A stretch of 64,000 nucleotides of DNA, from NCBI RefSeq assembly GCF_038396675.1, contig NC_088926.1:34522501-34586500 (forward strand), given 5' to 3'. Below the pieces are notes generated by a model that saw only the letters and a program-made list of their open reading frames with translations, ran no database searches and was not told the origin of the DNA. The DNA is from Hydra vulgaris. Lineage: Eukaryota > Cnidaria > Hydrozoa > Anthoathecata > Hydridae. This document shows, piece by piece, positions 24,062 to 62,907 of the stretch (its first letter is position 1; each line of letters opens with the position of its first letter). Position numbers and translations under genes: made by a program.

Positions 24062-25419
24062 GCTGCAGACATGCAGTAGACGTCATTTACACAGACTTTG
24101 CAAAGGCGTTTGACAAAGTACCACATAAACGCCTTCTTCATAAGCTGAGAGCGTACGGTATTCAAGGCGCTCTTCTTGACTGGATCGCAGCTTGGCTAAG
24201 CAATCGATGTCAACGAGTGGTTATAAACAGCATTACTTCTGAATGAAAAGCATTCACTAGTGGAGTGCCTCAAGGCTCAGTCTTGGGGCCATTCCCAGTG
24301 GGCACAGAACCTAAATAAGACGTCTTTTGAACGTTCAAAAGACGTCCAAAACGTTCAAAAGACGTTTAAAAGACGTCTTTTTTACGTCCTGTGCCCACTG
24401 GGTTGCTATTCGTAATCTTTGTAAACGACCTGCCGGACAGTATTACTCATCATATGAAACTGTTTGCCGACGACAGCAAAATAATAGGGATAATTAAAAA
24501 GGAGTCGGACAACATCACTCTCCAAGATGACGTTGACAAAGCAGTGAAATGGTCACATATTTGGCTCTTGCATTTCAACGTTGAGAAATGCAAAGTAATG
24601 AATGTTGGGCGCGGATGTAACAAGTCAACGTACAAATACTCAATGTCAAACGTTGACGGCACCCGTCGTCCTCTCGAAGAAACCGAAGTCGAAAGAGACC
24701 TTGGTGTGATGGTCTCGAATGACCTTAACGTTAGACCGCAAATAGAGTCAGCCGTATCAGTAGCGAATAGAGTGCTAGGGCGATTCAAAAAAACATTTCG
24801 CAGTCGCAGTTTTTATTTATGGCGCACTCTGTATCTCACTTACATTCGCCCCCATCTTGAGTTTGCTGTACAAGCCTGGTCACCGCATTTAAAATCAGAC
24901 ATAGCCATTCTCGAGCAAGTCCAACATCGAGCAACAAAAACAATATCGACTATTAAACACATGACCTATGAAGATCGACTCCAACGGCTCGGTTTAACAA
25001 CTCTTGAAGAACGCCGCAAAAGAGCAGATCTTATCGAGCAATTCAAAATCACTCGTAAGCTCGAGCTTGTTAGTTTTGTTGTCCCGCAAAAAATTTCAAA
25101 AAGTAAAGATAAGTATATTCTAAGAGGCCATAACCATAAACTAGAACGTCAGATGGTAAAAAACTGTGAGGAGCGGTATAACTTTTTTTCAAATAGAATT
25201 GTCGCCCCATGGAATGCGCTTTCGCAAGAAGCAGTGAACGCTCAATCCATCAACGCTTTCAAAAACAACATAAGAAAGTAACTTTATAGATACAATTGCT
25301 GCTTTGTCTGTAGCTTCTGTATCTCCATGTTCGTCAGCATAGGGGGGCCTGGTGTAGCACCTCTTCATCAAATTATAAATAGATTATTGTATTTGTATTT
25401 GATCACTGAATAATAATAA
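24062..25419 (+). mobile_element. 5'-truncated CR1-like LINE inside another LINE
   Basis: It starts within the RT: DVIYTDFAKAFDKVPHKRLL, then TSGVPQGSVLGP. It is interrupted by a MITE at 24294-24402 and continues LLFVIFVNDLPDSI and MKLFADDSKIIG (catalytic FADD). It then runs ERDLGVMVSNDLNVRPQ, LWRTLYLTYIRPHLEFAVQA and ends at TAA (25279-25281). One in-frame stop lies before the VPQG motif. The 3' end has a (TAA)n tail at about 25410-25419. TAATAT at 24056-24061 and 25420-25425 is the likely target duplication, though it is hard to separate from the tail. Same family as 20415-22450. Confidence 0.88.
24294..24402. mobile_element. 109-bp MITE inside the LINE RT frame
   Basis: Terminal inverted repeats CCCAGTGGGCACAG and CTGTGCCCACTGGG bound an interior of repeated GACGTC, AACGTT and CAAAAGACGT motifs with inverted symmetry. 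It splits the LINE RT exactly between GSVLGP and LLFVIF; removing it with one copy of the flanking TT (24292-24293, 24403-24404) restores the frame. Superfamily uncertain. Confidence 0.9.
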
Positions 25420-25425
25420 TAATAT

Positions 25426-27133
25426 AAGGCGGCTAGCTTGTTTTTGTTTATTTAAGTTACGCTTTAATTTTGATGGATAATTGCTGGCCCACGCAATATT
25501 ACAATAACTGATATAGCTATGGATAAACGAAAAGTAGATAAGTTTTAAGCAGTTTTTATCCAACATATGTCTTGTCTTGTACATAATTCCAATACTCTTT
25601 GAAATTTTATTTTCTATTAAATTAATGTGGTCTTTCCAACTTATTTGTTCGTCAAGTAAAACGCCTAAAAATTTAATGCAGAATGTCCGTTGTAAATTAG
25701 TTTTTTCTATTGAAATATTTGGGAGTTTTAGGGGCAAATTTTCAGATTTGGAGGGTTTAGAAAAAAGAACATATTTGCTTTTAGTTTTATTTAGAGAGAG
25801 TTTGTTGGCTTTCAACCATTCATTGAGGTTGTCAAGCTCACGATTAATAGTGATAAAGATTGACTCTATGTTTGAGTGGGTATAAAAAACCTGAGTGTCG
25901 TCAGCAAAAAGATTGAAATTTAATACACTAGAAGATAAGTAAATATCGTTTATATAGATAATAAATAATAAAGGCCCTAGAATAGATCCCTGTGGAACTC
26001 CGCAAGAAATGTTTTCTAGTTTCGTACAGGTTTTGTCATAAGATACACATTGTTTGCGATTATTAAGATAGGAAAAAAACCATTTATAATTATTATTTTT
26101 GACACCATAATTTCTGAGTTTGTAAAGAAGAATAGTATGTTCCACAGTATCGAAGGCCTTTGAGAGGTCAATAAAAACCCCAAGAGTATATTGGTTGTTA
26201 TCAAATCCGTTTAAAATTTCTTTAACAAATTTAATTACTGAATGTTCTGTCGAGTGCCCTTTTCTAAATCCGTACTGATTATTATTAAGCAATTTATGTT
26301 TTATAAAATAATTGTATAGCCTATTATGCATTATTCTCTCTAAAATTTTAGAAAAACATGGAAGTATTGAGATAGGTCTATAATTAGATAATTTAGAAAT
26401 ATCACCGTCTTTAAAAATTGGAACTACTCTTGCTAGTTTTAAGAGGTCAGGAAAAATACCATTATTAAATGAAAGATTAAAAATAATTAGCAAGGGTTTT
26501 TCAATAATATCAAAAACTTCTTTAACAACCCTTGGGCTTATGTCATCAAGACCTGAGCTTTTGTTTGGTTTTAACATATTAAAAGCAAACCGAAGTTCAT
26601 CAGGAGATACTTCAAGCTCATCCATCACACAGTCCTCTTCTTTAATATATGATTTAAAATTTTTATTTCCGGGAGTTATTTTATTTGCTAGGTTTTGACC
26701 GACGTTTATAAAATAATTATTAAAACTCTCTGCAATAACTTTTCGCTCATTAATTACTGTTCTTTCATCTTCAGTGTATATATATTTTGGTAAAGTATTA
26801 CCATGATCTTGTTTATTTTTTCCTATCACTTCCTTTATTATATCCCAAGTTTTTTTGTTATTACCAATATTATTTTGTAGTGATTTTGAGAAATAATTTT
26901 TTTTAGCTTTCTTTTTCAGGTTTTCAAACAGGTTTTTGTAAATTTTATATTTTTTTTCGTTTTGATAAGTTTTATTTTTTAAGAATTTTTCATATAGTCT
27001 TTGTTTTTTCTTTGAAGATTTAATAAGCTCTTTTGTAATCCAGGGACTTTGCAGGTTTTTAAGCTTAGTTTTTATTTCCTTCATCGGAAACGCTTTGTTG
27101 TAAGCATTAATGAACTCATTGTAAAAAAAATCA
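25426..27133 (-). pseudogene. LINE reverse transcriptase, long open frame
   Basis: About 565 residues are open from 27084 to the insertion point. Motifs with rough residue numbers: SPWITKELIKSSKKKQ (13-28), NYRPISILPCFSKILER (234-250), QYGFRKGHSTEHS (270-282), VFIDLSKAFDTVEH (303-316), SCGVPQGSILGPLLF (360-374), and NLFADDTQVF (391-400) with the catalytic Asp pair. Then follow KANKLSLNKTKS and KFLGVLLDEQISWKDHI. The core is free of stops and therefore fairly young, but the protein is cut at QASRLI by the plus-strand LINE; the last residues of the open frame are read from that insert. The endonuclease domain is missing. Confidence 0.9.
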
Positions 27134-28828
27134 TAATGTTCGAAGGAACGCCTTGCAGCGCATAATAGATCAACATGTCCAAACGCCAGTGTCGAGGAAA
27201 AAAGATTGTTTTCTAAGCGTAATTATGAATCATCACATCTAATCAATGATTCTCTTCAACTTCTGTCTACGTCTAATTCACCGACGCAGCGTGTACATCC
27301 CCCAATTAATGAAGAGCTCAAAAATGATATCGATACGAAACTTGCTAATTTCTTTTACCGTACAGGTATATCATTTCGTTTAGTCGAATTGGAGCCCTTG
27401 AAGGATTTCGTTATGTTGTTCGATCCATCGTACGCATCTGTCACTTCGAATGCTAAAGCCTTCTCAGGATCTCTGCTCGACAAACAATACACAAAATGTT
27501 CTACTTCTGTAAATGAAATTTTGAATTCTGAAACAAACTTAACACTGATGTCTGACAGCTGGACGAACATAAGAGGCGATCACATAGTGAATTTTTGTAT
27601 TAAAGCGCCCGATCAGAAGCCTTTTTTTTTACACCTTGATAAATACATCCGGAATCATTCAAAATTCATCTGCAGTTGCCGCGGCAATCTTACAAGTTAT
27701 TGAGAAGATTGGCCCACAAAAATTTACCAGATTCATAAGCGACAACGCTCCTGTTATGAAATCAGCGTGGAGGATCATCGAGGAGAAATATCCACACATC
27801 TCGGCTAGCAGATGCGGAGCTCATGGAGTCAACTTGCTTGTGAAGGACATAGTTTCTACAACTGAGGCCACAAAAACAGTCAAAGATGCAGAGAAAATTA
27901 TCAAATATGTGAAAAATCATCACATCGTGAAAGCAAAGTTTGATGAAAGACAGCAAATATTTCTCTTTCATTGTCCATGCCTGTATCTACACGATGGTTT
28001 AGTTATTATAAATCAATGAGCAGTCTCCAGCTATCAAAATACGTTCTTATTAAGTTGGTAGACGAAGAAAGTACATTACTGAAGGAAATTCAACTAAAGA
28101 ATACATCTGCTGATATTATGGCGTTGATAAAATCTAACTTATTTTGGGACCGTTTCTCTAAGCTTGTCAAGAGCATTGAATTTCTTTCCAACGTGATCGG
28201 AAAGTTAGAAAGTGATGAAGCTCCATTGTCTCTCGTGTATGATTATTTTGGTCAAATGTACAATTCTTATATGGACGATAAAGACATACAGCAAAAAGTG
28301 CAATCTCGCCTCAATTTTCTCTTTACACCAGGTATTGGAATTGCTTTCATATTAACGCCTAAAAATGCTGCAAAAGGTTTATATTTGAATGAAGATAAAA
28401 CCGATTTTATCACTGCTACAGTTGAATTCGTCAAAAAGATCAAACCTGAAATTGCTGACACGGCTGAGGATGAATTAATTGCTTTTATAGGAGAAATGGC
28501 TGCGCTGCCTGAGAGAAAGAAAACAATATTCAAGATGAACGCGCAAAATTATTGGAACATTATCGGTCGCGATAAATATCCTGCTCTTTACGAAATTGCA
28601 AAGCCTATTAACGAAATGATCTGCTCATCGGCTACAGCAAAAAGAGCTTAGTTGACCTTTCGGTTTATTCATTCGCGACTAAGAAATCGTCTTACGAATA
28701 AGAGAGTTGAAAAGCTGGTATTATTGTATACCAAAAGCGTGCTGATGGACACAAATGACAAGACTGATTACATTCTTGAAGAAGGTGCAATTCTCAATGA
28801 AATTGAATGTCAAGAAATCACCGAATAG
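27134..28828 (+). pseudogene. hAT transposase, main body (frameshifted)
   Basis: Continues the BED finger (KERLAAHNRSTCPNASVEEK), then a DUF659-like part of the catalytic domain (NLTLMSDSWTNIRGDHIVNF), a frameshift near 27640, FISDNAPVMKSAWRIIEEKY and SRCGAHGVNLLVKDI, and another frameshift near 27960. The C-terminal hAT dimerisation region follows: AQNYWNIIGRDKYPALYEIA and ICSSATAKRA, with TAG (28649-28651) where the usual Trp of the 'AK.RAWS' block should be, then TFRFIHSRLRNRL and an acidic tail ending at TAG 28826-28828. At least two frameshifts and two stops make it inactive. Confidence 0.85.
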
Positions 28829-29059: not shown

Positions 29060-29161
29060 ATTTGTTGTCAATTTGGAAGTAAACTTGTATTTTGTTTAAG
29101 TTTTCCAGACACCTCCATCACGATTTGCCAAACGCGTTTTGAGTAGTGCTTATATTTATTA

Positions 29162-29208
29162 CAGAGTTTATGCGAAATATAAAACATTTTTTAAGAAAAT
29201 ATAAAACA
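29162..29208 (+). repeat. Left terminal inverted repeat of the 16-kb element
   Basis: Begins CAGAGTTTATGCGAAATATA and matches the reverse complement of 45197-45243 with one difference (A/G at position 4). Confidence 0.9.
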
Positions 29209-29326
29209 GTTTTTAATAATTTAAAAAACATTTTTTTAGAGAATACAAAACAAATTGTAAGAAAATAAAAAACAAATTTATAAAATTATAAAACAATAAA
29301 AATATATATATAAAACAACTTTTAAG

Positions 29327-29610
29327 AAAATATAAAACACCTTAGTTATTTAAGAGTGCATTTATGATGTATAAAGTTATTCATAAATTTCTAAAGAATA
29401 AAGTGTATTTTTTTAATATAACTATAACTCATTATATTTAAAGATATAATTATATCATTATATTTAAAAATATAAAACTCATTATATTTAAAAATATAAA
29501 ACATTTTAGTTATTTAAGAGTGCATTTATGATGTATAAAGTTATTCATAAATTTCTAAAAAAATAACATTTTTTTAATATAACTATAACTCATTATATTT
29601 AAAGATATAA
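29327..29610 (+). repeat. About 120-bp direct repeat, two copies
   Basis: The segment with TTAGTTATTTAAGAGTGCAT and GATGTATAAAGTTATTCATA occurs at about 29327-29452 and again at about 29489-29610, nearly identical except for a short internal difference. It lies between the left terminal repeat and the transposase 3' end. Confidence 0.85.
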
Positions 29611-29632
29611 TATAAATAACAAAGTATCCACT

Positions 29633-30762
29633 TTAATATTCTTGCCTTGCTATGCCTTTCAAAACCCATCTTCTCATATTACAATACCAACCACAAAAAT
29701 CAATGCCAATTGTCGGTATAAGCGAATTTAAAGTAGCCTTAACTTCATTGCTAGTTTTTGGAAACGGCCTTATAGAAGTATAATTAGCTTTAAGACAACT
29801 AAAGTATTCCTCGATCGGGTTCATTTGCGGTGAACAAGGTGGCAAAAAGTAAACTGAAACATTAGATTGGTCGAGCAAATCGATTACATCTCTTCGACAA
29901 TGAAATGCACAATTATCAAATACTAGCACAGAATGAGGATTCCTTTGGAAATACGGTCTTAAATTGTTAGTTATAAAATCACAAAAAATATTGCCATTAT
30001 AGGCACTATCCACTATCTTAAATGAAATGCACAATTATCAAATACTAGCACAGAATGAGGATTCCTTTGGAAATACGGTCTTAAATTGTTAGTTATAAAA
30101 TCACAAAAAATATTGCCATTATAGGCACTATCCACTATCTTAAAGCTTAGAATACCATTAACTGTTATAGCGGCTAATTAGACTTACATTCTTTCCACGA
30201 TTTGCTAGCACTGTAGCAAAACATTTTGTACTCTTTATAGAATAGCCATATTGCTTAGAAGTATGTAAGTTAAAGCCTGTTTCATCTAGAAATACTAAGT
30301 TATTGTCAGGAATCGAATTAATAGTCCTGCAAAAACTTTGTCTTAAATCAACGTTTTGCGGTAAGTTCCTTTCTTTTGGTACTAAGTAAGTCGTTTTCTA
30401 GTGAACTCCATCGATTTCAAATACTTAGATATTGTTGGTATAGATGCATTAATATTCCTTTCAATGAGAATGTTTCTCAACGATGCTAAGGTATGAGATG
30501 AATCATGCTCAATTAACAATCGAATTTCAGATTTATGTATCTCGTCATAAGAGCTGCGCCTTCCTTTTTTTACTGATGTGATTTCATCATCACTAAGTCC
30601 TTTACTGATTTTATCAGAAATAGAACGTGTTGCAGAAACTGATATTTCAACTTCTTCCGCTATTTCTTTTAATTTCATTTCTTTTAGCATTGACTTTCTT
30701 ATGGTTCTTACAATATCCTTTGTAATAAGTGTTCTTTTTTTCCTTTCTCTCTCATTTTCCAT
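29633..30762 (-). pseudogene. Tc1/mariner (IS630-like) DDE transposase, broken
   Basis: The N-terminal part (30762-30382) has MENERERKKRTLITKDIVRT and helix-turn-helix style repeats (LKEIAEEVEISVSATRSIS; ASIPTISKYLKSMEF). After a frameshift the middle part carries NNLVFLDETGFNLHTSKQYG (first catalytic Asp) and VLANRGKNVSLI. A 122-bp tandem duplication then disrupts the frame. The C-terminal part (to 29633) has SVLVFDNCAFHCRRDVIDLL (second Asp) and FLPPCSPQMNPIEEYFSCLK (catalytic Glu). Asp-to-Glu spacing is 34 residues, so it is DD34E. All three catalytic residues are still encoded, but no single frame joins them. Confidence 0.85.
29901..30144 (-). repeat. Perfect 122-bp tandem duplication in the transposase
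   Basis: 29901-30022 and 30023-30144 appear identical. 122 is not a multiple of three, so the duplication alone shifts the frame. Lack of differences suggests a recent event, or an assembly error. Confidence 0.95.
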
Positions 30763-31193
30763 TTATCAATTAAAACAACAAAATAAAGCTTAAATAATAT
30801 ATTTTAATTAAAAGCATAGTAAGGCATGATTACATATGTATCGCACTTAAAAATTTTTCTCTGGATAAAAAAAAGCATTTGTTTAAAAAAAAACATTTGT
30901 TTTTCTATTTTTATTGTACTTAATGTAAACTTAAAACTATAACGAACATTACTTACCATATTAAATCTTTTAAGTTTGGAATAAAACTTTTATTCCATAC
31001 TTAAAAGTCTAATTCCAAACTTTAAGGTATGATAAAAAGTTTGATAATAGACTCAAAAAGTTATACTTTTAAAGCACTTATAACTAACAACTAATTTACT
31101 ACCACCGTCCTTTTTTTATTTTTTATAGTTCTCTTCTCTGACATGAATAAACCTCATAAATTCCAAAGTGTTATGGAGTAATTATGTAATTAA

Positions 31194-34100
31194 ATGTTTT
31201 ATAAATTCTTAAAAAATGTTTTATATTTTCTTTAAAAAATGTTTTACATTTTCTTAAAAACTGTTTTATATTTTCTTAAAAACTGTTTTATATTTTCTTA
31301 AAAACTGTTTTATATTTTCTTAAAAACTGTTTTATATTTTCTTAAAATGTTTTATATTTTCTTAAAAACTGTTTTATATATTCTTTAAAAACTGTTTTAT
31401 ATTTTCTTAAAATGTTTTATATTTTCTTAAAAACTGTTTTATATTTTCTTAAAATGTTTTATATTTTCTTAAAAAATGTTTTATATTTTCTTAAAAACTG
31501 TTTTATATATTCTTAAAAACTGTTTTATATTTTCTTAAAAACTGTTTTATATTTTCTTAAAAACTGTTTTATATTTTCTTAAAAACTGTTTTATATTTTC
31601 TTAAAATGTTTTATATTTTCTTAAAAAATGTTTTATATTTTCTTAAAAACTGTTTTATATTTTCTTAAAAACTGTTTTATATATTCTTAAAAACTGTTTT
31701 ATATTTTCTTAAAAACTGTTTTATATTTTCTTAAAATGTTTTATATTTTCTTAAAAAATGTTTTATATTTTCTTAAAACCTGTTTTATATTTTCTTAAAA
31801 TGTTTTATATTTTCTTAAAAAATGTTTTATATTTTCTTAAAAACTGTTTTATATTTTCTTAAAATGTTTTATATTTTCTTAAAAACTGTTTTATATTTTC
31901 TTAAAAAATGTTTTATATATTCTTTAAAAACTGTTTTATATTTTCTTAAAACCTGTTTTATATTTTCTTAAAATGTTTTATATTTTCTTAAAAACTGTTT
32001 TATATTTTCTTAAAAACTGTTTTATATTTTCTTAAAAACTGTTTTATATTTTCTTAAAAACTGTTTTATATATTCTTTAAAAACTGTTTTATATTTTCTT
32101 AAAATGTTTTATATTTTCTTAAAAACTGTTTTATATTTTCTTAAAAACTGTTTTATATTTTCTTAAAAACTGTTTTATATTTTCTTAAAATGTTTTATAT
32201 TTTCTTAAAAAATGTTTTATATTTTCTTAAAAACTGTTTTATATTTTCTTAAAATGTTTTATATTTTCTTAAAAAATGTTTTATATTTTCTTAAAAACTG
32301 TTTTATATTTTCTTAAAATGTTTTATATTTTATTAAAAAATGTTTTATATTTTCTTAAAAAATGTTTTATATTTTCTTAAAACCTGTTTTATATTATCTT
32401 AAAATGTTTTATATTTTCTTAAAAACTGTTTTATATTTTCTTAAAAACTGTTTTATATATTCTTTAAAAACTGTTTTATATTTTCTTAAAACCTGTTTTA
32501 TATTTTCTTAAAATGTTTTGTATTTTCTTAAAAACTGTTTTATATTTTCTTAAAACCTGTTTTATATTTTCTTAAAAACTGTTTTATATTTTCTTAAAAA
32601 ATGTTTTATATTTTCTTAAAAACTGTTTTATATTTTCTTAAAAAATGTTTTATATTTTCTTAAAAAATGTTTTATATTTTCTTAAAATGTTTTATATTTT
32701 CTTAAAAAATGTTTTATATTTTCTTAAAAACTGTTTTATATTTTCTTAAAAACTGTTTTATATATTCTTTAAAAACTGTTTTATATTTTCTTAAAACCTG
32801 TTTTATATTTTCTTAAAATGTTTTATATTTTCTTAAAAACTGTTTTATATTTTCTTAAAACCTGTTTTATATTTTCTTAAAATGTTTTATATTTTCTTAA
32901 AAACTGTTTTATATTTTCTTAAAAACTGTTTTATATTTTCTTAAAACCTGTTTTATATTTTCTTAAAATGTTTTATATTTTCTTAAAAACTGTTTTATAT
33001 TTTCTTAAAAACTGTTTTATATTTTCTTAAAATGTTTTATATTTTCTTAAAAAATGTTTTATATTTTCTTAAAAACTGTTTTATATTTTCTTAAAATGTT
33101 TTATATTTTCTTAAAAAATGTTTTATATTTTCTTAAAAACTGTTTTATATTTTCTTAAAAAATGTTTTATATTTTCTTAAAACCTGTTTTATATTTTCTT
33201 AAAATGTTTTATATTTTCTTAAAAACTGTTTTATATTTTCTTAAAAACTGTTTTATATAATTTCTTAAAATGTTTTATATTTTCTTAAAAAATGTTTTAT
33301 ATTTTCTTAAAAACTGTTTTATATTTTCTTAAAAAATGTTTTATATATTCTTTAAAAACTGTTTTATATTTTCTTAAAACCTGTTTTATATTTTCTTAAA
33401 ATGTTTTATATTTTCTTAAAAAATGTTTTATATTTTCTTAAAAACTGTTTTATATTTTCTTAAAAACTGTTTTATATTTTCTTAAAATGTTTTATATTTT
33501 CTTAAAAAATGTTTTATATTTTCTTAAAAACTGTTTTATATTTTCTTAAAATGTTTTATATTTTCTTAAAAAATGTTTTATATTTTCTTAAAACCTGTTT
33601 TATATTTTCTTAAAATGTTTTATATTTTCTTAAAAACTGTTTTATATTTTCTTAAAAAATGTTTTATATTTTCTTAAAAACTGTTTTATATTTTCTTAAA
33701 AAATGTTTTATATTTTCTTAAAAAATGTTTTATATTTTCTTAAAATGTTTTATATTTTCTTAAAAAATGTTTTATATTTTCTTAAAAACTGTTTTATATT
33801 TTCTTAAAAACTGTTTTATATATTCTTTAAAACTGTTTTATATTTTCTTAAAACCTGTTTTATATTTTCTTAAAATGTTTTATATTTTCTTAAAAACTGT
33901 TTTATATTTTCTTAAAACCTGTTTTATATTTTCTTAAAATGTTTTATATTTTCTTAAAAACTGTTTTATATTTTCTTAAAAACTGTTTTATATTTTCTTA
34001 AAACCTGTTTTATATTTTCTTAAAATGTTTTATATTTTCTTAAAAACTGTTTTATATTTTCTTAAAAACTGTTTTATATTTTCTTAAAATGTTTTATATT

Positions 34101-37100
34101 TTCTTAAAAAATGTTTTATATTTTCTTAAAAACTGTTTTATATTTTCTTAAAATGTTTTATATTTTCTTAAAAAATGTTTTATATTTTCTTAAAAACTGT
34201 TTTATATTTTCTTAAAAACTGTTTTATATATTCTTTAAAAACTGTTTTATATTTTCTTAAAACCTGTTTTATATTTTCTTAAAATGTTTTATATTTTCTT
34301 AAAAAATGTTTTATATTTTCTTAAAAACTGTTTTATATTTTCTTAAAAACTGTTTTATATATTCTTTAAAAACTGTTTTATATTTTCTTAAAACCTGTTT
34401 TATATTTTCTTAAAATGTTTTATATTTTCTTAAAAACTGTTTTATATTTTCTTAAAAACTGTTTTATATTTTCTTAAAACCTGTTTTATATTTTCTTAAA
34501 ATGTTTTATATTTTCTTAAAAAATGTTTTATATTTTCTTAAAAACTGTTTTATATTTTCTTAAAAACTGTTTTATATATTCTTTAAAACCTGTTTTATAT
34601 TTTCTTAAAATGTTTTATATTTTCTTAAAAAATGTTTTATATTTTCTTAAAAACTGTTTTATATTTTCTTAAAACCTGTTTTATATTTTCTTAAAATGTT
34701 TTATATTTTCTTAAAAACTGTTTTATATTTTCTTAAAAACTGTTTTATATTTTCTTAAAACCTGTTTTATATTTTCTTAAAATGTTTTATATTTTCTTAA
34801 AAAATGTTTTATATTTTCTTAAAAACTGTTTTATATTTTCTTAAAATGTTTTATATTTTCTTAAAAAATGTTTTATATTTTCTTAAAAACTGTTTTATAT
34901 TTTCTTAAAATGTTTTATATTTTCTTAAAAAATGTTTTATATTTTCTTAAAAACTGTTTTATATTTTCTTAAAAAATGTTTTATATTTTCTTAAAACCTG
35001 TTTTATATTTTCTTAAAATGTTTTATATTTTCTTAAAAACTGTTTTATATTTTCTTAAAAACTGATTTATATAATTTCTTAAAATGTTTTATATTTTCTT
35101 AAAAAATGTTTTATATTTTCTTAAAAACTGTTTTATATTTTCTTAAAAAATGTTTTATATATTCTTTAAAAACTGGTTTATATTTTCTTAAAACCTGTTT
35201 TATATTTTCTTAAAATGTTTTATATTTTCTTAAAAAATGTTTTATATTTTCTTAAAAACTGTTTTATATTTTCTTAAAAACTGTTTTATATTTTCTTAAA
35301 ATGTTTTATATTTTCTTAAAAAATGTTTTATATTTTCTTAAAAACTGTTTTATATTTTCTTAAAATGTTTTATATTTTCTTAAAAAATGTTTTATATTTT
35401 CTTAAAACCTGTTTTATATTTTCTTAAAATGTTTTATATTTTCTTAAAAACTGTTTTATATTTTCTTAAAAAATGTTTTATATTTTCTTAAAAACTGTTT
35501 TATATTTTCTTAAAAAATGTTTTATATTTTCTTAAAAAATGTTTTATATTTTCTTAAAATGTTTTATATTTTCTTAAAAAATGTTTTATATTTTCTTAAA
35601 AACTGTTTTATATTTTCTTAAAAACTGTTTTATATATTCTTTAAAACTGTTTTATATTTTCTTAAAACCTGTTTTATATTTTCTTAAAATGTTTTATATT
35701 TTCTTAAAAACTGTTTTATATTTTCTTAAAACCTGTTTTATATTTTCTTAAAATGTTTTATATTTTCTTAAAAACTGTTTTATATTTTCTTAAAAACTGT
35801 TTTATATTTTCTTAAAACCTGTTTTATATTTTCTTAAAATGTTTTATATTTTCTTAAAAACTGTTTTATATTTTCTTAAAAACTGTTTTAAATTTTCTTA
35901 AAATGTTTTATATTTTCTTAAAAAATGTTTTATATTTTCTTAAGAACTGTTTTATATTTTCTTAAAATGTTTTATATTTTCTTAAAAAATGTTTTATATT
36001 TTCTTAAAAACTGTTTTATATTTTCTTAAAAACTGTTTTATATATTCTTTAAAAACTGTTTTATATTTTCTTAAAACCTGTTTTATATTTTCTTAAAATG
36101 TTTTATATTTTCTTAAAAAATGTTTTATATTTTCTTAAAAACTGTTTTATATTTTCTTAAAAAATGTTTTATATATTCTTTAAAAACTGTTTTATATTTT
36201 CTTAAAACCTGTTTTATATTTTCTTAAAATGTTTTATATTTTCTTAAAAACTGTTTTATATTTTCTTAAAAACTGTTTTATATTTTCTTAAAACCTGTTT
36301 TATATTTTCTTAAAATGTTTTATATTTTCTTAAAAAATGTTTTATATTTTCTTGAAAACTGTTTTATATTTTCTTAAAAAATGTTTTATATTTTCTTAAA
36401 ACTTGTTTTATATTTTCTTAAAATGTTTTATATTTTCTTAAAAACTGTTTTATATTTTCTTAAAAACTGTTTTATATTTTCTTAAAATGTTTTATATTTT
36501 CTTAAAAAATGTTTTATATTTTCTTAAAAACTGTTTTATATTTTCTTAAAAAATGTTTTATATATTCTTCAAAAACTGTTTTATATTTTCTTAAAACCTG
36601 TTTTATATTTTCTTAAAATGTTTTATATTTTCTTAAAAAATGTTTTATATTTTCTTAAAAACTGTTTTATATTTTCTTAAAAACTGTTTTATATTTTCTT
36701 AAAATGTTTTATATTTTCTTAAAAAATGTTTTATATTTTCTTAAAAACTGTTTTATATTTTCTTAAAATGTTTTATATTTTCTTAAAAAATGTTTTATAT
36801 TTTCTTAAAACCTGTTTTATATTTTCTTAAAATGTTTTATATTTTCTTAAAAACTGTTTTATATTTTCTTAAAAACTGTTTTATATTTTCTTAAAAAATG
36901 TTTTATATTTTCTTAAAACCTGTTTTATATTTTCTTAAAAAATGTTTTATATTTTCTTAAAAACTGTTTTATATTTTCTTAAAATGTTTTATATTTTCTT
37001 AAAAACCGTTTTATATTTTCTTAAAAACTGTTTTATATTTTCTTAAAAACTGTTTTATATTTTCTTAAAAACTGTTTTATATATTCTTTAAAAACTGTTT

Positions 37101-40100
37101 TATATTTTCTTAAAATGTTTTATATTTTCTTAAAAACTGTTTTATATTTTCTTAAAAACTGTTTTATATTTTCTTAAAAAATGTTTTATATTTTCTTAAA
37201 AACTGTTTTATATATTCTTAAAAACTGTTTTATATTTTCTTAAAAACTGTTTTATATTTTCTTAAAATGTTTTATATTTTCTTAAAAAATATTTTATATT
37301 TTCTTAAAACCTGTTTTATATTTTCTTAAAATGTTTTATATTTTCTTAAAAAATGTTTTATATTTTCTTAAAAACTGTTTTATATTTTCTTAAAAAATGT
37401 TTTATATATTCTTTAAAAACTGTTTTATATTTTCTTAAAACCTGTTTTATATTTTCTTAAAATGTTTTATATTTTCTTAAAAACTGTTTTATATTTTCTT
37501 AAAAACTGTTTTATATTTTCTTAAAACCTGTTTTATATTTTCTTAAAATGTTTTATATTTTCTTAAAAAATGTTTTATATTTTCTTGAAAACTGTTTTAT
37601 ATTTTCTTAAAAAATGTTTTATATTTTCTTAAAACTTGTTTTATATTTTCTTAAAATGTTTTATATTTTCTTAAAAACTGTTTTATATTTTCTTAAAAAC
37701 TGTTTTATATTTTCTTAAAATGTTTTATATTTTCTTAAAAAATGTTTTATATTTTCTTAAAAACTGTTTTATATTTTCTTAAAAAATGTTTTATATATTC
37801 TTCAAAAACTGTTTTATATTTTCTTAAAACCTGTTTTATATTTTCTTAAAATGTTTTATATTTTCTTAAAAAATGTTTTATATTTTCTTAAAAACTGTTT
37901 TATATTTTCTTAAAAACTGTTTTATATTTTCTTAAAATGTTTTATATTTTCTTAAAAAATGTTTTATATTTTCTTAAAAACTGTTTTATATTTTCTTAAA
38001 ATGTTTTATATTTTCTTAAAAAATGTTTTATATTTTCTTAAAACCTGTTTTATATTTTCTTAAAATGTTTTATATTTTCTTAAAAACTGTTTTATATTTT
38101 CTTAAAAACTGTTTTATATTTTCTTAAAAAATGTTTTATATTTTCTTAAAACCTGTTTTATATTTTCTTAAAAAATGTTTTATATTTTCTTAAAAACTGT
38201 TTTATATTTTCTTAAAATGTTTTATATTTTCTTAAAAACCGTTTTATATTTTCTTAAAAACTGTTTTATATTTTCTTAAAAACTGTTTTATATTTTCTTA
38301 AAAACTGTTTTATATATTCTTTAAAAACTGTTTTATATTTTCTTAAAATGTTTTATATTTTCTTAAAAACTGTTTTATATTTTCTTAAAAACTGTTTTAT
38401 ATTTTCTTAAAAAATGTTTTATATTTTCTTAAAAACTGTTTTATATATTCTTAAAAACTGTTTTATATTTTCTTAAAAACTGTTTTATATTTTCTTAAAA
38501 TGTTTTATATTTTCTTAAAAAATGTTTTATATTTTCTTAAAAACTGTTTTATATTTTCTTAAAATGTTTTATATTTTCTTAAAAACTGTTTTATATATTC
38601 TTAAAACCTGTTTTATATTTTCTTAAAATGTTTTATATTTTCTTAAAAACTGTTTTATATTTTCTTAAAAACTGTTTTATATTTTCTTAAAAACTGTTTT
38701 ATATTTTCTTAAAAACTGTTTTATATATTCTTTAAAAACTGTTTTATATTTTCTTAAAATGTTTTATATTTTCTTAAAAACTGTTTTATATTTTCTTAAA
38801 AACTGTTTTATATTTTCTTAAAAACTGTTTTATATTTTCTTAAAATGTTTTATATTTTCTTAAAAAATGTTTTATATTTTCTTAAAAACTGTTTTATATT
38901 TTCTTAAAATGTTTTATATTTTCTTAAAAAATGTTTTATATTTTCTTAAAAAATGTTTTATATTTTCTTAAAACCTGTTTTATATTTTCTTAAAATGTTT
39001 TATATTTTCTTAAAAACTGTTTTATATTTTCTTAAAAACTGTTTTATATATTCTTTAAAAACTGTTTTATATTTTCTTAAAATGTTTTATATTTTCTTAA
39101 AAACTGTTTTATATTTTCTTAAAAACTGTTTTATATAATTTCTTAAAATGTTTTATATTTTCTTAAAAAATGTTTTATATTTTCTTAAAAACTGTTTTAT
39201 ATTTTCTTAAAAAATGTTTTATATATTCTTTAAAAACTGTTTTATATTTTCTTAAAATGTTTTATATTTTCTTAAAAACTGTTTTATATTTTCTTAAAAA
39301 CTGTTTTATATTTTCTTAAAAACTGTTTTATATTTTCTTAAAATGTTTTATATTTTCTTAAAAAATGTTTTATATTTTCTTAAAAACTGTTTTATATTTT
39401 CTTAAAATGTTTTATATTTTCTTAAAAAATGTTTTATATTTTCTTAAAAAATGTTTTATATTTTCTTAAAACCTGTTTTATATTTTCTTAAAATGTTTTA
39501 TATTTTCTTAAAAACTGTTTTATATTTTCTTAAAAACTGTTTTATATATTCTTTAAAAACTGTTTTATATTTTCTTAAAATGTTTTATATTTTCTTAAAA
39601 ACTGTTTTATATTTTCTTAAAAAATGTTTTATATTTTCTTAAAAACTGTTTTATATTTTCTTAAAAAATGTTTTATATTTTCTTAAAAAATGTTTTATAT
39701 TTTCTTAAAATGTTTTATATTTTCTTAAAAAATGTTTTATATTTTCTTAAAAACTGTTTTATATTTTCTTAAAAACTGTTTTATATATTCTTTAAAAACT
39801 GTTTTATATTTTCTTAAAAACTGTTTTATATTTTCTTAAAACCTGTTTTATATTTTCTTAAAATGTTTTATATTTTCTTAAAAAATGTTTTATATTTTCT
39901 TAAAAACCGTTTTATATTTTCTTAAAAACTGTTTTATATTTTCTTAAAAACTGTTTTATATTTTCTTAAAAAATGTTTTATATTTTCTTAAAACCTGTTT
40001 TATATTTTCTTAAAATGTTTTATATTTTCTTAAAAACTGTTTTATATTTTCTTAAAAACTGTTTTATATATTCTTTAAAAACTGTTTTATATTTTCTTAA

Positions 40101-43100
40101 AATGTTTTATATTTTCTTAAAACCTGTTTTATATTTTCTTAAAATGTTTTATATTTTCTTAAAAACTGTTTTATATTTTCTTAAAAACTGTTTTATATTT
40201 TCTTAAAACCTGTTTTATATTTTCTTAAAATGTTTTATATTTTCTTAAAAAATGTTTTATATTTTCTTAAAAACTGTTTTATATATTCTTTAAAAACTGT
40301 TTTATATTTTCTTAAAATGTTTTATATTTTCTTAAAAACTGTTTTATATTTTCTTAAAAACTGTTTTATATTTTCTTAAAATGTTTTATATTTTCTTAAA
40401 AACTGTTTTATATTTTCTTAAAAAATGTTTTATATATTCTTTAAAAACTGTTTTATATTTTCTTAAAACCTGTTTTATATTTTCTTAAAATGTTTTATAT
40501 TTTCTTAAAACCTGTTTTATATTTTCTTAAAAAATGTTTTATATTTTCTTAAAACTTGTTTTATATTTTCTTAAAATGTTTTATATTTTCTTAAAAACTG
40601 TTTTATATTTTCTTAAAAACTGTTTTATATTTTCTTAAAATGTTTTATATTTTCTTAAAAAATGTTTTATATTTTCTTAAAAACTGTTTTATATTTTCTT
40701 AAAAAATGTTTTATATATTCTTCAAAAACTGTTTTATATTTTCTTAAAACCTGTTTTATATTTTCTTAAAATGTTTTATATTTTCTTAAAAAATGTTTTA
40801 TATTTTCTTAAAAACTGTTTTATATTTTCTTAAAAACTGTTTTATATTTTCTTAAAATGTTTTATATTTTCTTAAAAAATGTTTTATATTTTCTTAAAAA
40901 CTGTTTTATATTTTCTTAAAATGTTTTATATTTTCTTAAAAAATGTTTTATATTTTCTTAAAACCTGTTTTATATTTTCTTAAAATGTTTTATATTTTCT
41001 TAAAAACTGTTTTATATTTTCTTAAAAACTGTTTTATATTTTCTTAAAAAATGTTTTATATTTTCTTAAAACCTGTTTTATATTTTCTTAAAAAATGTTT
41101 TATATTTTCTTAAAAACTGTTTTATATTTTCTTAAAATGTTTTATATTTTCTTAAAAACCGTTTTATATTTTCTTAAAAACTGTTTTATATTTTCTTAAA
41201 AAATGTTTTATATTTTCTTAAAATGTTTTATATTTTCTTAAAAACTGTTTTATATTTTCTTAAAAACTGTTTTATATTTTCTTAAAAAATGTTTTATATT
41301 TTCTTAAAAACTGTTTTATATATTCTTAAAAACTGTTTTATATTTTCTTAAAATCTGTTTTATATTTTCTTAAAATGTTTTATATTTTCTTAAAAAATGT
41401 TTTATATTTTCTTAAAACCTGTTTTATATTTTCTTAAAATGTTTTATATTTTCTTAAAATGTTTTATATTTTCTTAAAAACTGTTTTATATTTTCTTAAA
41501 AACTGTTTTATATTTTCTTAAAATGTTTTATATTTTCTTAAAAAATGTTTTATATTTTCTTAAAAACTGTTTTATATTTTCTTAAAATGTTTTATATTTT
41601 CTTAAAAACTGTTTTATATTTTCTTAAAAAATGTTTTATATATTCTTTAAAAACTGTTTTATATTTTCTTAAAACCTGTTTTATATTTTCTTAAAATGTT
41701 TTATATTTTCTTAAAAACTGTTTTATATTTTCTTAAAAACTGTTTTATATTTTCTTAAAAACTGTTTTATATTTTCTTAAAAACTGTTTTATATATTCTT
41801 TAAAAACTGTTTTATATTTTCTTAAAATGTTTTATATTTTCTTAAAAACTGTTTTATATTTTCTTAAAAACTGTTTTATATTTTCTTAAAAACTGTTTTA
41901 TATTTTCTTAAAATGTTTTATATTTTCTTAAAAAATGTTTTATATTTTCTTAAAAACTGTTTTATATTTTCTTAAAATGTTTTATATTTTCTTAAAAAAT
42001 GTTTTATATTTTCTTAAAAACTGTTTTATATTTTCTTAAAATGTTTTATATTTTCTTAAAAAATGTTTTATATTTTCTTAAAAAATGTTTTATATTTTCT
42101 TAAAACCTGTTTTATATTTTCTTAAAATGTTTTATATTTTCTTAAAAACTGTTTTATATTTTCTTAAAAACTGTTTTATATTTTCCTAAAAACTGTTTTA
42201 TATTTTCTTAAAAACTGTTTTATATATTCTTTAAAAACTGTTTTATATTTTCTTAAAATGTTTTATATTTTCTTAAAAACTGTTTTATATTTTCTTAAAA
42301 AATGTTTTATATTTTCTTAAAAACTGTTTTATATTTTCTTAAAAAATGTTTTATATTTTCTTAAAAAATGTTTTATATTTTCTTAAAATGTTTTATATTT
42401 TCTTAAAAAATGTTTTATATTTTCTTAAAAACTGTTTTATATATTCTTTAAAAACTGTTTTATATTTTCTTAAAACCTGTTTTATATTTTCTTAAAATGT
42501 TTTATATTTTCTTAAAAACTGTTTTATATTTTCTTAAAACCTGTTTTATATTTTCTTAAAATGTTTTATATTTTCTTAAAAACTGTTTTATATTTTCTTA
42601 AAAACTGTTTTATATTTTCTTAAAAACTGTTTTATATTTTCTTAAAATGTTTTATATTTTCTTAAAAAATGTTTTATATTTTCTTAAAAACTGTTTTATA
42701 TTTTCTTAAAATGTTTTATATTTTCTTAAAAAATGTTTTATATTTTCTTAAAAACTGTTTTATATTTTCTTAAAATGTTTTATATTTTCTTAAAAAATGT
42801 TTTATATTTTCTTAAAAACTGTTTTATATTTTCTTAAAAAATGTTTTATATTTTCTTAAAACCTGTTTTATATTTTCTTAAAATGTTTTATATTTTCTTA
42901 AAAACTGTTTTATATTTTCTTAAAAACTGTTTTATATTTTCTTAAAATGTTTTATATTTTCTTAAAAAATGTTTTATATTTTCTTAAAAACTGTTTTATA
43001 TTTTCTTAAAAAATGTTTTATATATTCTTTAAAAACTGTTTTATATTTTCTTAAAAAATGTTTTATATTTTCTTAAAACCTGTTTTATATTTTCTTAAAA

Positions 43101-45225
43101 TGTTTTATATTTTCTTAAAAACTGTTTTATATTTTCTTAAAAACTGTTTTATATTTTCTTAAAAAATGTTTTATATTTTCTTAAAACCTGTTTTATATTT
43201 TCTTAAAAAATGTTTTATATTTTCTTAAAAACTGTTTTATATTTTCTTAAAATGTTTTATATTTTCTTAAAAAATGTTTTATATTTTCTTAAAAACTGTT
43301 TTATATTTTCTTAAAAACTGTTTTATATATTCTTTAAAAACTGTTTTATATTTTCTTAAAACCTGTTTTATATTTTCTTAAAATGTTTTATATTTTCTTA
43401 AAAAATGTTTTATATTTTCTTAAAAACTGTTTTATATTTTCTTAAAAAATGTTTTATATATTCTTTAAAAACTGTTTTATATTTTCTTAAAACCTGTTTT
43501 ATATTTTCTTAAAATGTTTTATATTTTCTTAAAAACTGTTTTATATTTTCTTAAAAACTGTTTTATATTTTCTTAAAACCTGTTTTATATTTTCTTAAAA
43601 TGTTTTATATTTTCTTAAAAAATGTTTTATATTTTCTTAAAATGTTTTATATTTTCTTAAAAAATGTTTTATATTTTCTTAAAAACTGTTTTATATTTTC
43701 TTAAAATGTTTTATATTTTCTTAAAAAATGTTTTATATTTTCTTAAAAACTGTTTTATATTTTCTTAAAATGTTTTATATTTTCTTAAAAAATGTTTTAT
43801 ATTTTCTTAAAAACTGTTTTATATTTTCTTAAAAAATGTTTTATATTTTCTTAAAACCTGTTTTATATTTTCTTAAAATGTTTTATGTTTTCTTAAAAAC
43901 TGTTTTATATTTTCTTAAAAACTGATTTATATTTTCTTAAAATGTTTTATATTTTCTTAAAAAATGTTTTATATTTTCTTAAAAACTGTTTTATATTTTC
44001 TTAAAAAATGTTTTATATATTCTTTAAAAACTGTTTTATATTTTCTTAAAACCTGTTTTATATTTTCTTAGAATGTTTTATATTTTCTTAAAAAATGTTT
44101 TATATTTTCTTAAAAACTGTTTTATATTTTCTTAAAAACTGTTTTATATTTTCTTAAAATGTTTTATATTTTCTTAAAAAATGTTTTATATTTTCTTAAA
44201 AACTGTTTTATATTTTCTTAAAATGTTTTATATTTTCTTAAAAAATGTTTTATATTTTCTTAAAACCTGTTTTATATTTTCTTAAAATGTTTTATATTTT
44301 CTTAAAAACTGTTTTATATTTTCCTAAAAACTTTTTTATATTTTCTTAAAAAATGTTTTATATTTTCTTAAAACCTGTTTTATATTTTCTTAAAAAATGT
44401 TTTATATTTTCTTAAAAACTGTTTTATATTTTCTTAAAATGTTTTATGTTTTCTTAAAAAATGTTTTATATTTTCTTAAAAACTGTTTTATATTTTCTTA
44501 AAAAATGTTTTATATTTTCTTAAAAACTGTTTTATATTTTCTTAAAAAATGTTTTATATTTTCTTAAAAAATGTTTTATATTTTCTTAAAATGTTTTATA
44601 TTTTCTTAAAAAATGTTTTATATTTTCTTAAAAACTGTTTTATATTTTCTTAAAAACTGTTTTATATATTCTTTAAAACTGTTTTATATTTTCTTAAAAC
44701 CTGTTTTATATTTTCTTAAAATGTTTTATATTTTCTTAAAAACTGTTTTATATTTTCTTAAAACCTGTTTTATATTTTCTTAAAATGTTTTATATTTTCT
44801 TAAAAACTGTTTTATATTTTCTTAAAAACTGTTTTATATTTTCTTAAAATGTTTTATATTTTCTTAAAAAATGTTTTATATTTTCTTAAAACCTGTTTTA
44901 TATTTTCTTAAAATGTTTTATATTTTCTTAAAAACTGTTTTATATTTTCTTAAAAACTGTTTTATATTTTCTTAAAAAATGTTTTATATTTTCTTAAAAC
45001 CTGTTTTATATTTTCTTAAAAAATGTTTTATATTTTCTTAAAACCTGTTTTATATTTTCTTAAAATGTTTTATATTTTCTTAAAAAATGTTTTATATTTT
45101 CTTAAAAACTGTTTTATATTTTCTTAAAAACTGTTTTATATATTCTTTAAAAACTGTTTTATATTTTCTTAAAACCTGTTTTATATTTTCTTAAAATGTT
45201 TTATATTTTCTTAAAAAATGTTTTA
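31194..45225. repeat. 14-kb AT minisatellite, 20-23 bp units
   Basis: Roughly 640 head-to-tail units share the core TTTTATATTTTCTTAAAA followed by ACTG, TG, AATG or CCTG. A 23-bp variant has TATATATTCTTTAAAAACTG. The variants are interspersed in recurring orders, giving higher-order duplications. Rare variants (ATTCTTCAAAAACTG, AAAAACCG, TATATAATTTC) recur at fixed offsets. The repeated FYIFLK-type open frames within it are by-products. The unit is the same as the inner part of the terminal inverted repeat at 29162. Confidence 0.97.
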
Positions 45226-45243
45226 TATTTCGCATAAACCCTG
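45197..45243 (-). repeat. Right terminal inverted repeat joined to the minisatellite
   Basis: The last minisatellite unit reads into TTTTATATTTCGCATAAACC then CTG, the reverse complement of the left end at 29162. Confidence 0.9.
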
Positions 45244-45244
45244 A

Positions 45245-45640
45245 AAGCAAGTTTGAGAAGTATTTTTTTTTTTTTTTTTTTGCTTTTTTGCGAATCTTTT
45301 CAAATAAGTTTATATAAGTTTTATAATTTTGTTTATGTTTTTCTGATTTCGATTTTAGGTATTTAACGTATAACTTCTGATTAATTTTTTACGATTTCCT
45401 GAGACCTTTTGTAATCCAAGGAGATGATATTTCTTTATCGTTTAAAACTATTTCAACCAAAATTTAAAATTATTTTAATTAAAGGAAAATTGAATCATAC
45501 ACTTGGTAAAAGGTTTTGAAAAAATTGTTGTAGATTATGTTAATACTATCATTAGAGTTAATATAACCCCAATCTGAAAGAATTCAAATTTTTCTTGTTA
45601 ATGAGCCGTTTCTTTATTGAAACCTTTCCCTGCATTTCTT
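45245..45640 (-). pseudogene. LINE fragment abutting the 16-kb element
   Basis: Minus-strand frames give NSNDSINIIYNNFFKTFYQV, then ISSPWITKGLRKS and SEKHKQNYKTYINLFEKIRK, then a Lys/T-run stretch and YFSNLLS, the region between endonuclease and RT of CR1/Jockey-type LINEs. Stops and indels are present. It ends abruptly at the CAGGG of the right terminal repeat, and I do not see the rest of the LINE on the left side of the 16-kb element. Confidence 0.7.
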
Positions 45641-45684: not shown

Positions 45685-46110
45685 TTTTTTTAAATTAATT
45701 TAATTTTAATAAGATGCCATAACACACTCTAACCACATAATTAAATTAATTTAATTTTAATAAGACGCCATAACACACTCTAACCACATAATTAAATTAA
45801 TTTAATTTTAATAAGATGCCATAACACACTCTAACCACATAATTATATAATTATATAATTAATATTCTAACCACATAATTAAATTAATTTAATTTTAATA
45901 AGACGCCATAACACACTCTAACCACATAATTAAATTAATTTAATTTTAATAAGATGCCATAACACACTCTAACCACATAATTATATAATTATTTAATTAA
46001 TATTCTAACCACATAATTAAATTAATTTAATTTTAATAAGATGCCATAACACACTCTAACCACATAATTATATAATTATTTAATTAATATTCTAACCACA
46101 TAATTAATTA
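45685..46110. repeat. 51-bp satellite with higher-order structure
   Basis: Units contain TAATAAGATGCCATAACACA and CTCTAACCACATAATTAAAT (GATGCC alternates with GACGCC). Some units end in TTATATAATTATATAATTAA and TATTCTAACCACAT instead, giving a longer composite period of about 130 bp. Confidence 0.9.
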
Positions 46111-62494: not shown

Positions 62495-62602
62495 AATATT
62501 GCACGCTCTATACCTATCAATACACAATAATATTGCACGCTCTATACCTATCAATACACAATAATATTGCACGCTCTATACCTATCAATACACAATAATA
62601 TT
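62495..62602 (+). repeat. 34-bp tandem repeat, three copies
   Basis: The unit AATATTGCACGCTCTATACC then TATCAATACACAAT occurs three times without visible differences, then AATATTAATC. Confidence 0.95.

Positions 62603-62845: not shown

Positions 62846-62907
<62 letters not shown>
62846..62907 (+). repeat. (CA)n microsatellite
   Basis: About 31 CA dinucleotides without interruption. Confidence 0.97.

Follow-up and report, generated by a model that had tools for sequence, protein, structure and literature searches.

That satellite DNA can grow from arrays lying inside transposons is already established, as passages in three papers set out (PMC4079207, PMC12628747, PMC9659126). In the Tetris/TIR-220 system of Drosophila virilis, tandem units in the terminal inverted repeats lead to satellite-like arrays, and long arrays between two terminal domains have been seen on DNA fibres, according to the passages of PMC4079207 that deal with them. 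Galileo, likewise of Drosophila, varies in unit number between the two ends of one copy as well as among copies, and transposase binding sites have been suggested to lie in its units (both points from the passages of PMC3573991 on these units). miDNA4, a Xenopus MITE of the same Tc1/mariner superfamily as the element described here, carries inside it a tandem unit of variable number (passages in PMC12628747 and PMC9659126). The beginnings of satellites have mostly been inferred from old, dispersed arrays.

The window considered here is a 64-kb stretch of the Hydra vulgaris genome (C7:34522501-34586500, in 911.5 Mb and 15 contigs); HydraT2T_AEP, of 912 Mb and 15 chromosomes, is described as gapless in the part of PMC12220107 that presents it. 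A decayed Tc1-like DD34E element spans positions 29162-45243 of the window (Table 1). Its two termini, 29162-29208 and the reverse complement of 45197-45243, are identical at 46 of 47 positions. An earlier note on this DNA had described an array of about 14 kb and 640 units whose last unit runs unbroken into a terminal sequence found again, inverted, at 29162, next to about eight degenerate units. That description holds in its essentials: the array measures 14,036 bp and 649.5 copies in the assembled sequence by TRF (648 unit cores by fuzzy matching), and the left end has 7 units by count in 177 bp (7.6 copies by TRF). The transposase, between the left terminus and the array, lies on the minus strand, so that the expanded end is the 5' end of the element. 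The broken transposase contains a tandem duplication with exactly identical copies, which is probably recent.

Table 1. Features of the element and its edges (positions in the 64-kb window)
Feature	Position	Strand
TA target dinucleotide, left	29160..29161	
Element 3' end: terminus CAGAGTTTATGCG... and 7 units, mostly degenerate	29162..29339	-
Decayed transposase in several broken frames; DDE_3 domain in the piece 29633-30034	29633..30762	-
Exact 122-bp tandem duplication within the transposase, 100% match	29899..30144	-
5' non-coding stretch, ending in the inner edge GAGTAATTATGTAATTAAA common to short copies	30763..31194	-
Expanded 5'-end unit array, about 650 units of 20-23 bp	31195..45230	-
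Longest exact block duplication, 1,189 bp (54 units): 36079-37267 and 37312-38500	36079..38500	-
Element 5' terminus, unbroken from the last array units	45197..45243	-
Target dinucleotide, right: AA, taken as a TA whose T became A	45244..45245	
Right flank, a multicopy repeat whose empty copies run on into the left flank	45244..45543	+

Relatives of the element were sought throughout the genome with 24 bases of the terminus, allowing up to 3 mismatches. This gave 103 matches, 54 in forward and 49 in reverse orientation, where a reversed-pattern control gave one, and the recurrence of the terminus is therefore not due to chance. Sixty loci were retrieved (3 + 3 of the 103 termini lie outside them) and 100 ends were parsed, the window's own two included; L001-L008, which overlap later-retrieved loci, were left out of parsing and counts. 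Two single-unit, chance-like ends (L067 and L068) and six ends of unknown side do not enter the medians given below.

The element is Tc1-like, as the assignment to Tc1/IS630 in the earlier note had anticipated. A DDE_3 domain is matched in the window's transposase piece (9e-14) and in an unbroken fragment from L010 (6.6e-31); in the latter the match to HTH_Tnp_Tc3_2 is weak and below its cutoff, and a family search with the N-terminal piece of the window's transposase gave no convincing match. Sleeping Beauty is the sole PDB match at E up to 0.01 (E 9e-4). Counted by hand on the translations, 34 residues separate the second D from the E, the spacing that marks Tc1-like DD34E transposases. TA adjoins 89 of the 100 parsed ends (TTA at 86), and 32 of the 39 copies with paired ends have it at both; together with the terminal inverted repeats, these features place the element. 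Foldback elements such as Tetris and FB are marked by long inverted ends, internal tandem repeats and little coding capacity. The element does not belong with them, because the ends of its sister copies are short and because 48 of the 60 other loci contain a transposase match.

Within the array, cores are spaced at 22 bp (461 times), 20 bp (147) and 23 bp (36), and no reverse-oriented core was found there. When the array was cut into 641 pieces, 597 of them belonged to five exact unit types: 222 to A, 140 to B (20 bp), 138 to C, 67 to D and 30 to E (23 bp; 31 in a second count). Of the 60 other loci scanned, 44 contain type C and 8 type A, but none contains B, D or E, three types that have been seen in this array alone. 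Written out in units, the array forms a mosaic that includes exactly duplicated blocks of 54, 32, 30, 30 and 25 units, the 54-unit block recurring at a shift of 55 units, the 32-unit block at 84 and 30-unit blocks at 133 and at 188. Runs of 12 or more units contain 408 of 644 units, the longest run in 200 shuffles being 12, and the two 1,189-bp members of the 54-unit pair show 0 differences.

These properties bear on the worry that the array might be a misassembly, either of the wrong length or a product of gap-fill noise. Nanopore reads did fill gaps in the matching assembly, according to the passage of PMC12220107 on how it was made, and this lends the worry some substance. Against it, there are no ambiguous bases (N) in the window; scattered indels are few, because 597 of the 641 pieces fall into five exact types; the mosaic is built of several different exact blocks; and a single empty site links both termini, as described below. 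We consider a misassembly very unlikely, and the exact length of the array is presumably that assembled.

The empty site comes from the right flank, a repeat with at least 40 scored matches (its own included) among 558 candidates. From the 39 other flank matches, 6 paralogues reaching the element edge were examined. In 5 of these the site is uninterrupted: the left flank (about 92-104 bp, at 81-89% identity) directly joins the right flank, with the junction ...GTGCTTATATTTATTAAGCAAG... in four paralogues and a variant of it in L072. The sixth, L070, differs in its upstream part, which lacks the window's left flank. The filled site is TTTATTA-CAGAG...CCCTG-AAAGCAAG and the empty site is TTAA. 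That the right dinucleotide is AA rather than TA counts against a clean TA insertion; the filled site is read as a TA duplication with one T-to-A change on the right. Since paralogues retain the empty site, both termini, the transposase and the array constitute one insertion. The possibility that the array had been joined to an unrelated terminus, on which the earlier note would have foundered, is rejected by the same evidence.

The earlier note had suggested scoring units at related ends and looking for short copies with few units, and such copies are the rule: the 90 other ends of known side carry 2-32 units. Among the 46 other 5' ends the range is 2-32 with a median of 5, among the 44 other 3' ends it is 3-23 with a median of 9, and the six ends of unknown side have 3-19. 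The unit is thus present in small number inside sister elements. With 7 units at its 3' end, the window's element is ordinary; with 649 at its 5' end, it lies far beyond the range of the 46 others, 7.9 s.d. above their mean on a log scale. No parsed end has between 33 and 648 units, and the last twenty-fold step is accordingly without an intermediate. Related ends devoid of the unit, which would have spoken against the proposal, are absent among those parsed, in a search whose pattern includes the first unit core and which ends without any unit would escape. A second, smaller expansion is seen at L026:378-1084, where 32 nearly identical units stand at the 5' end of another copy.

Unit number can differ even between close copies. 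Among pairs of copies whose bodies are less than 2.5% apart, 18 of 21 differ in unit number at one or more of the compared ends (L011 and L017, with bodies 0.75% apart, have 9 versus 3 units at one end and 23 versus 18 at the other); the remaining 3 show no difference where both are comparable. Adjacent identical pairs of non-canonical units number 40 in 89 arrays, the window's excluded; 2000 shuffles gave 5.4 on average and never more than 14. Sister ends, too, amplify their own unit variants.

Could the element have captured a satellite array that already existed? The size of the array, which no other parsed end of the family approaches, would fit such an origin, and a donor should then be found elsewhere. 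Two censuses of the 911 Mb, each with three units in a row and up to 3 mismatches in 61 bases (and so blind to arrays or donors diverged beyond that), found none. The C-type run has 368+179 matches in the genome, of which 368+175 fall within the window and the 60 loci together and 259 within the window alone; for the A-type run the corresponding figures are 382+123, 382+122 and 291. The window and the retrieved loci thus account for 543 of 547 and 504 of 505 three-unit runs, leaving 4 and 1. Of the matches located beyond the window, 283 of the 284 C-type and 212 of the 213 A-type ones adjoin a matched terminus in unit runs, the sole located exception being in L054, beyond its transposase matches and away from a matched terminus. 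This near absence of unit runs elsewhere implies that no pre-existing satellite of the unit was captured. Both edges of the array, moreover, are element sequence that is found in short copies: the inner edge and first array unit recur in L023, L029, L040 and L053, and L023 also has the second unit with one base changed. Within 3 mismatches in 61 bases capture is rejected, and we regard it as improbable in the extreme.

The array has, instead, expanded in place from units inside a transposon end, as the earlier note proposed; short sister ends, the shared edge and terminus, and the empty site all bear this out. Where that note needs limiting is in speaking of a route from transposon to satellite DNA. 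Satellite-like DNA can indeed be seen arising from a transposon at a single place, but the array is undispersed: there is one large array, it lies inside an element, and element-free arrays at several loci were not found. The inner edge has 43 places in the genome, 40 of them inside the window and the retrieved loci; at a further one, L069, the edge is followed directly by other sequence and not by another large array, and two places on C15 lay outside the sequence examined. The array has not spread, and to call it a satellite overstates it.

When the array grew can be judged against the body of the element. The comparison used 41 of 53 copies, the other 12 having less than 60% of the body, and an alignment that stops at column 1730 and takes in just the first copy of the 122-bp duplication. 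The window's body is 5.0% from the nearest of the 40 others, on a terminal branch of 0.041. Two 1,189-bp blocks dating from the insertion and free to diverge should by now differ at about 98 positions (2 x 0.041 x 1,189), so that the absence of any difference places the last duplication or homogenisation well after insertion. Block identity dates the last duplication or conversion: the most recent growth or homogenisation came late relative to insertion, but growth could have begun earlier.

An array that grew in an earlier, active copy, with the 16-kb element then transposing whole, is to be weighed here. Both ends and the target site do fit a normal insertion. Such a history is difficult to reconcile with the absence of another expanded copy among the parsed ends and of B, D or E units in the 60 other loci; the identical block pair on its 0.041 branch also opposes it, subject to the proviso that later homogenisation could hide an older start. 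We allow it a small probability, and growth after rather than before insertion is what these observations suggest.

Very probably, then, the sequence of events was a Tc1-like insertion, decay of its transposase and in-place amplification of the 5' end at this one copy. A DD34E Tc1-like transposon with short runs of the 22-bp unit at both ends (putative transposase binding sites) would have inserted at a TA in an older repeat, and the transposase of the inserted copy would then have decayed. A few 5'-end units would have been amplified in place about 100-fold by repeated tandem duplication of blocks, through unequal exchange or through slippage between units during replication or repair, with the terminus and the innermost units keeping their positions. 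Going from about 6 to 650 units requires at least seven doublings. As to the molecular mechanism of exchange, blocks of tens of units would suit unequal exchange or large-loop slippage better than unit-by-unit slippage.

The commonest array unit ends in AAAAAC, generating a quasi-palindrome, AAAAC-T-GTTTT, at unit junctions. In a hairpin test on single-stranded DNA, three A-type units gave z -2.30 and three C-type units z 0.01 (-0.62 and 0.86, respectively, for the complementary strands). The signal at A-type units is modest, confined to one strand and a lead only.

The neighbourhood contains other repeats and remnants. There is a 92.7% duplication near the element 3' end, and a second tandem array at 45690-46107, starting about 450 bp past the element, has periods of 51, 87 and 138 with up to 100% match (TRF) and one weak genome match elsewhere (69%). 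TRF repeats of period 50 or more at 95% match occur in 2 of the 60 other loci (L043 and L049), which are mostly short; because of that, and because the window was not randomly chosen, the cluster of local duplications may be due to chance. Upstream reading frames at 24391-28019 match RVT_1 and DUF659 (one of two matches below cutoff in each case) and are probably the remains of other mobile elements. An exact 34-bp tandem repeat (3.2 copies) at 62495-62602 and a pure CA microsatellite at 62846-62907 lie farther off. A more ambitious proposal, which we find doubtful, is that the locus represents satellite birth at its one-locus stage: an end made unstable by a one-base change that gave the quasi-palindromic junction, in a duplication-prone locus (three further local duplications within 17 kb), would have yielded a mosaic higher-order array before dispersal.

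An array of this size might also be kept by selection, for example as a transposase sink or a heterochromatin seed, and secondary transposase binding sites have been proposed in transposon-end tandem repeats (in the passages of PMC3573991 on such repeats). None of the tests pointed to a function, this copy has a broken transposase, and the large array occupies a single locus. Selection therefore seems most unlikely, and the insertion of a Tc1-like element followed by in-place growth of its 5' end remains our preferred account.

No paper on this array was found among the matches listed in the open-licence Hydra literature, and the portions of PMC12220107 retrieved under 'satellite' or 'tandem' contain no passage on such an array. 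One assembled genome thus holds the starting element, its short sisters, the empty site and the grown array, with the large array at one place only, so that the order of steps and the mechanism of growth become directly testable. The kind of event is known from Tetris, Galileo and miDNA4; the window is an unusually clean single-locus case. Tetris is non-autonomous and foldback-like, with 220-bp units and 39 contigs of those units alone (passages in PMC4079207), whereas the family in the window is Tc1-like and has transposase sequence, its unit is 22 bp long, and its one large array is resolved to the base together with the empty site. Galileo, of the P superfamily, has units of about 210 bp in two or three copies (passages in PMC3573991). 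miDNA4 is a non-autonomous MITE, for which the proposed origin is capture of a pre-existing tandem repeat (passages in PMC12628747 and PMC9659126), a route credited to Scalvenzi and Pollet in the pertinent passage of the review PMC12628747; for the window's array, the census finds no donor for capture. A Tc1-like family with transposase sequence, a single locus, an empty site and a near-complete census distinguish the Hydra array within this known kind.
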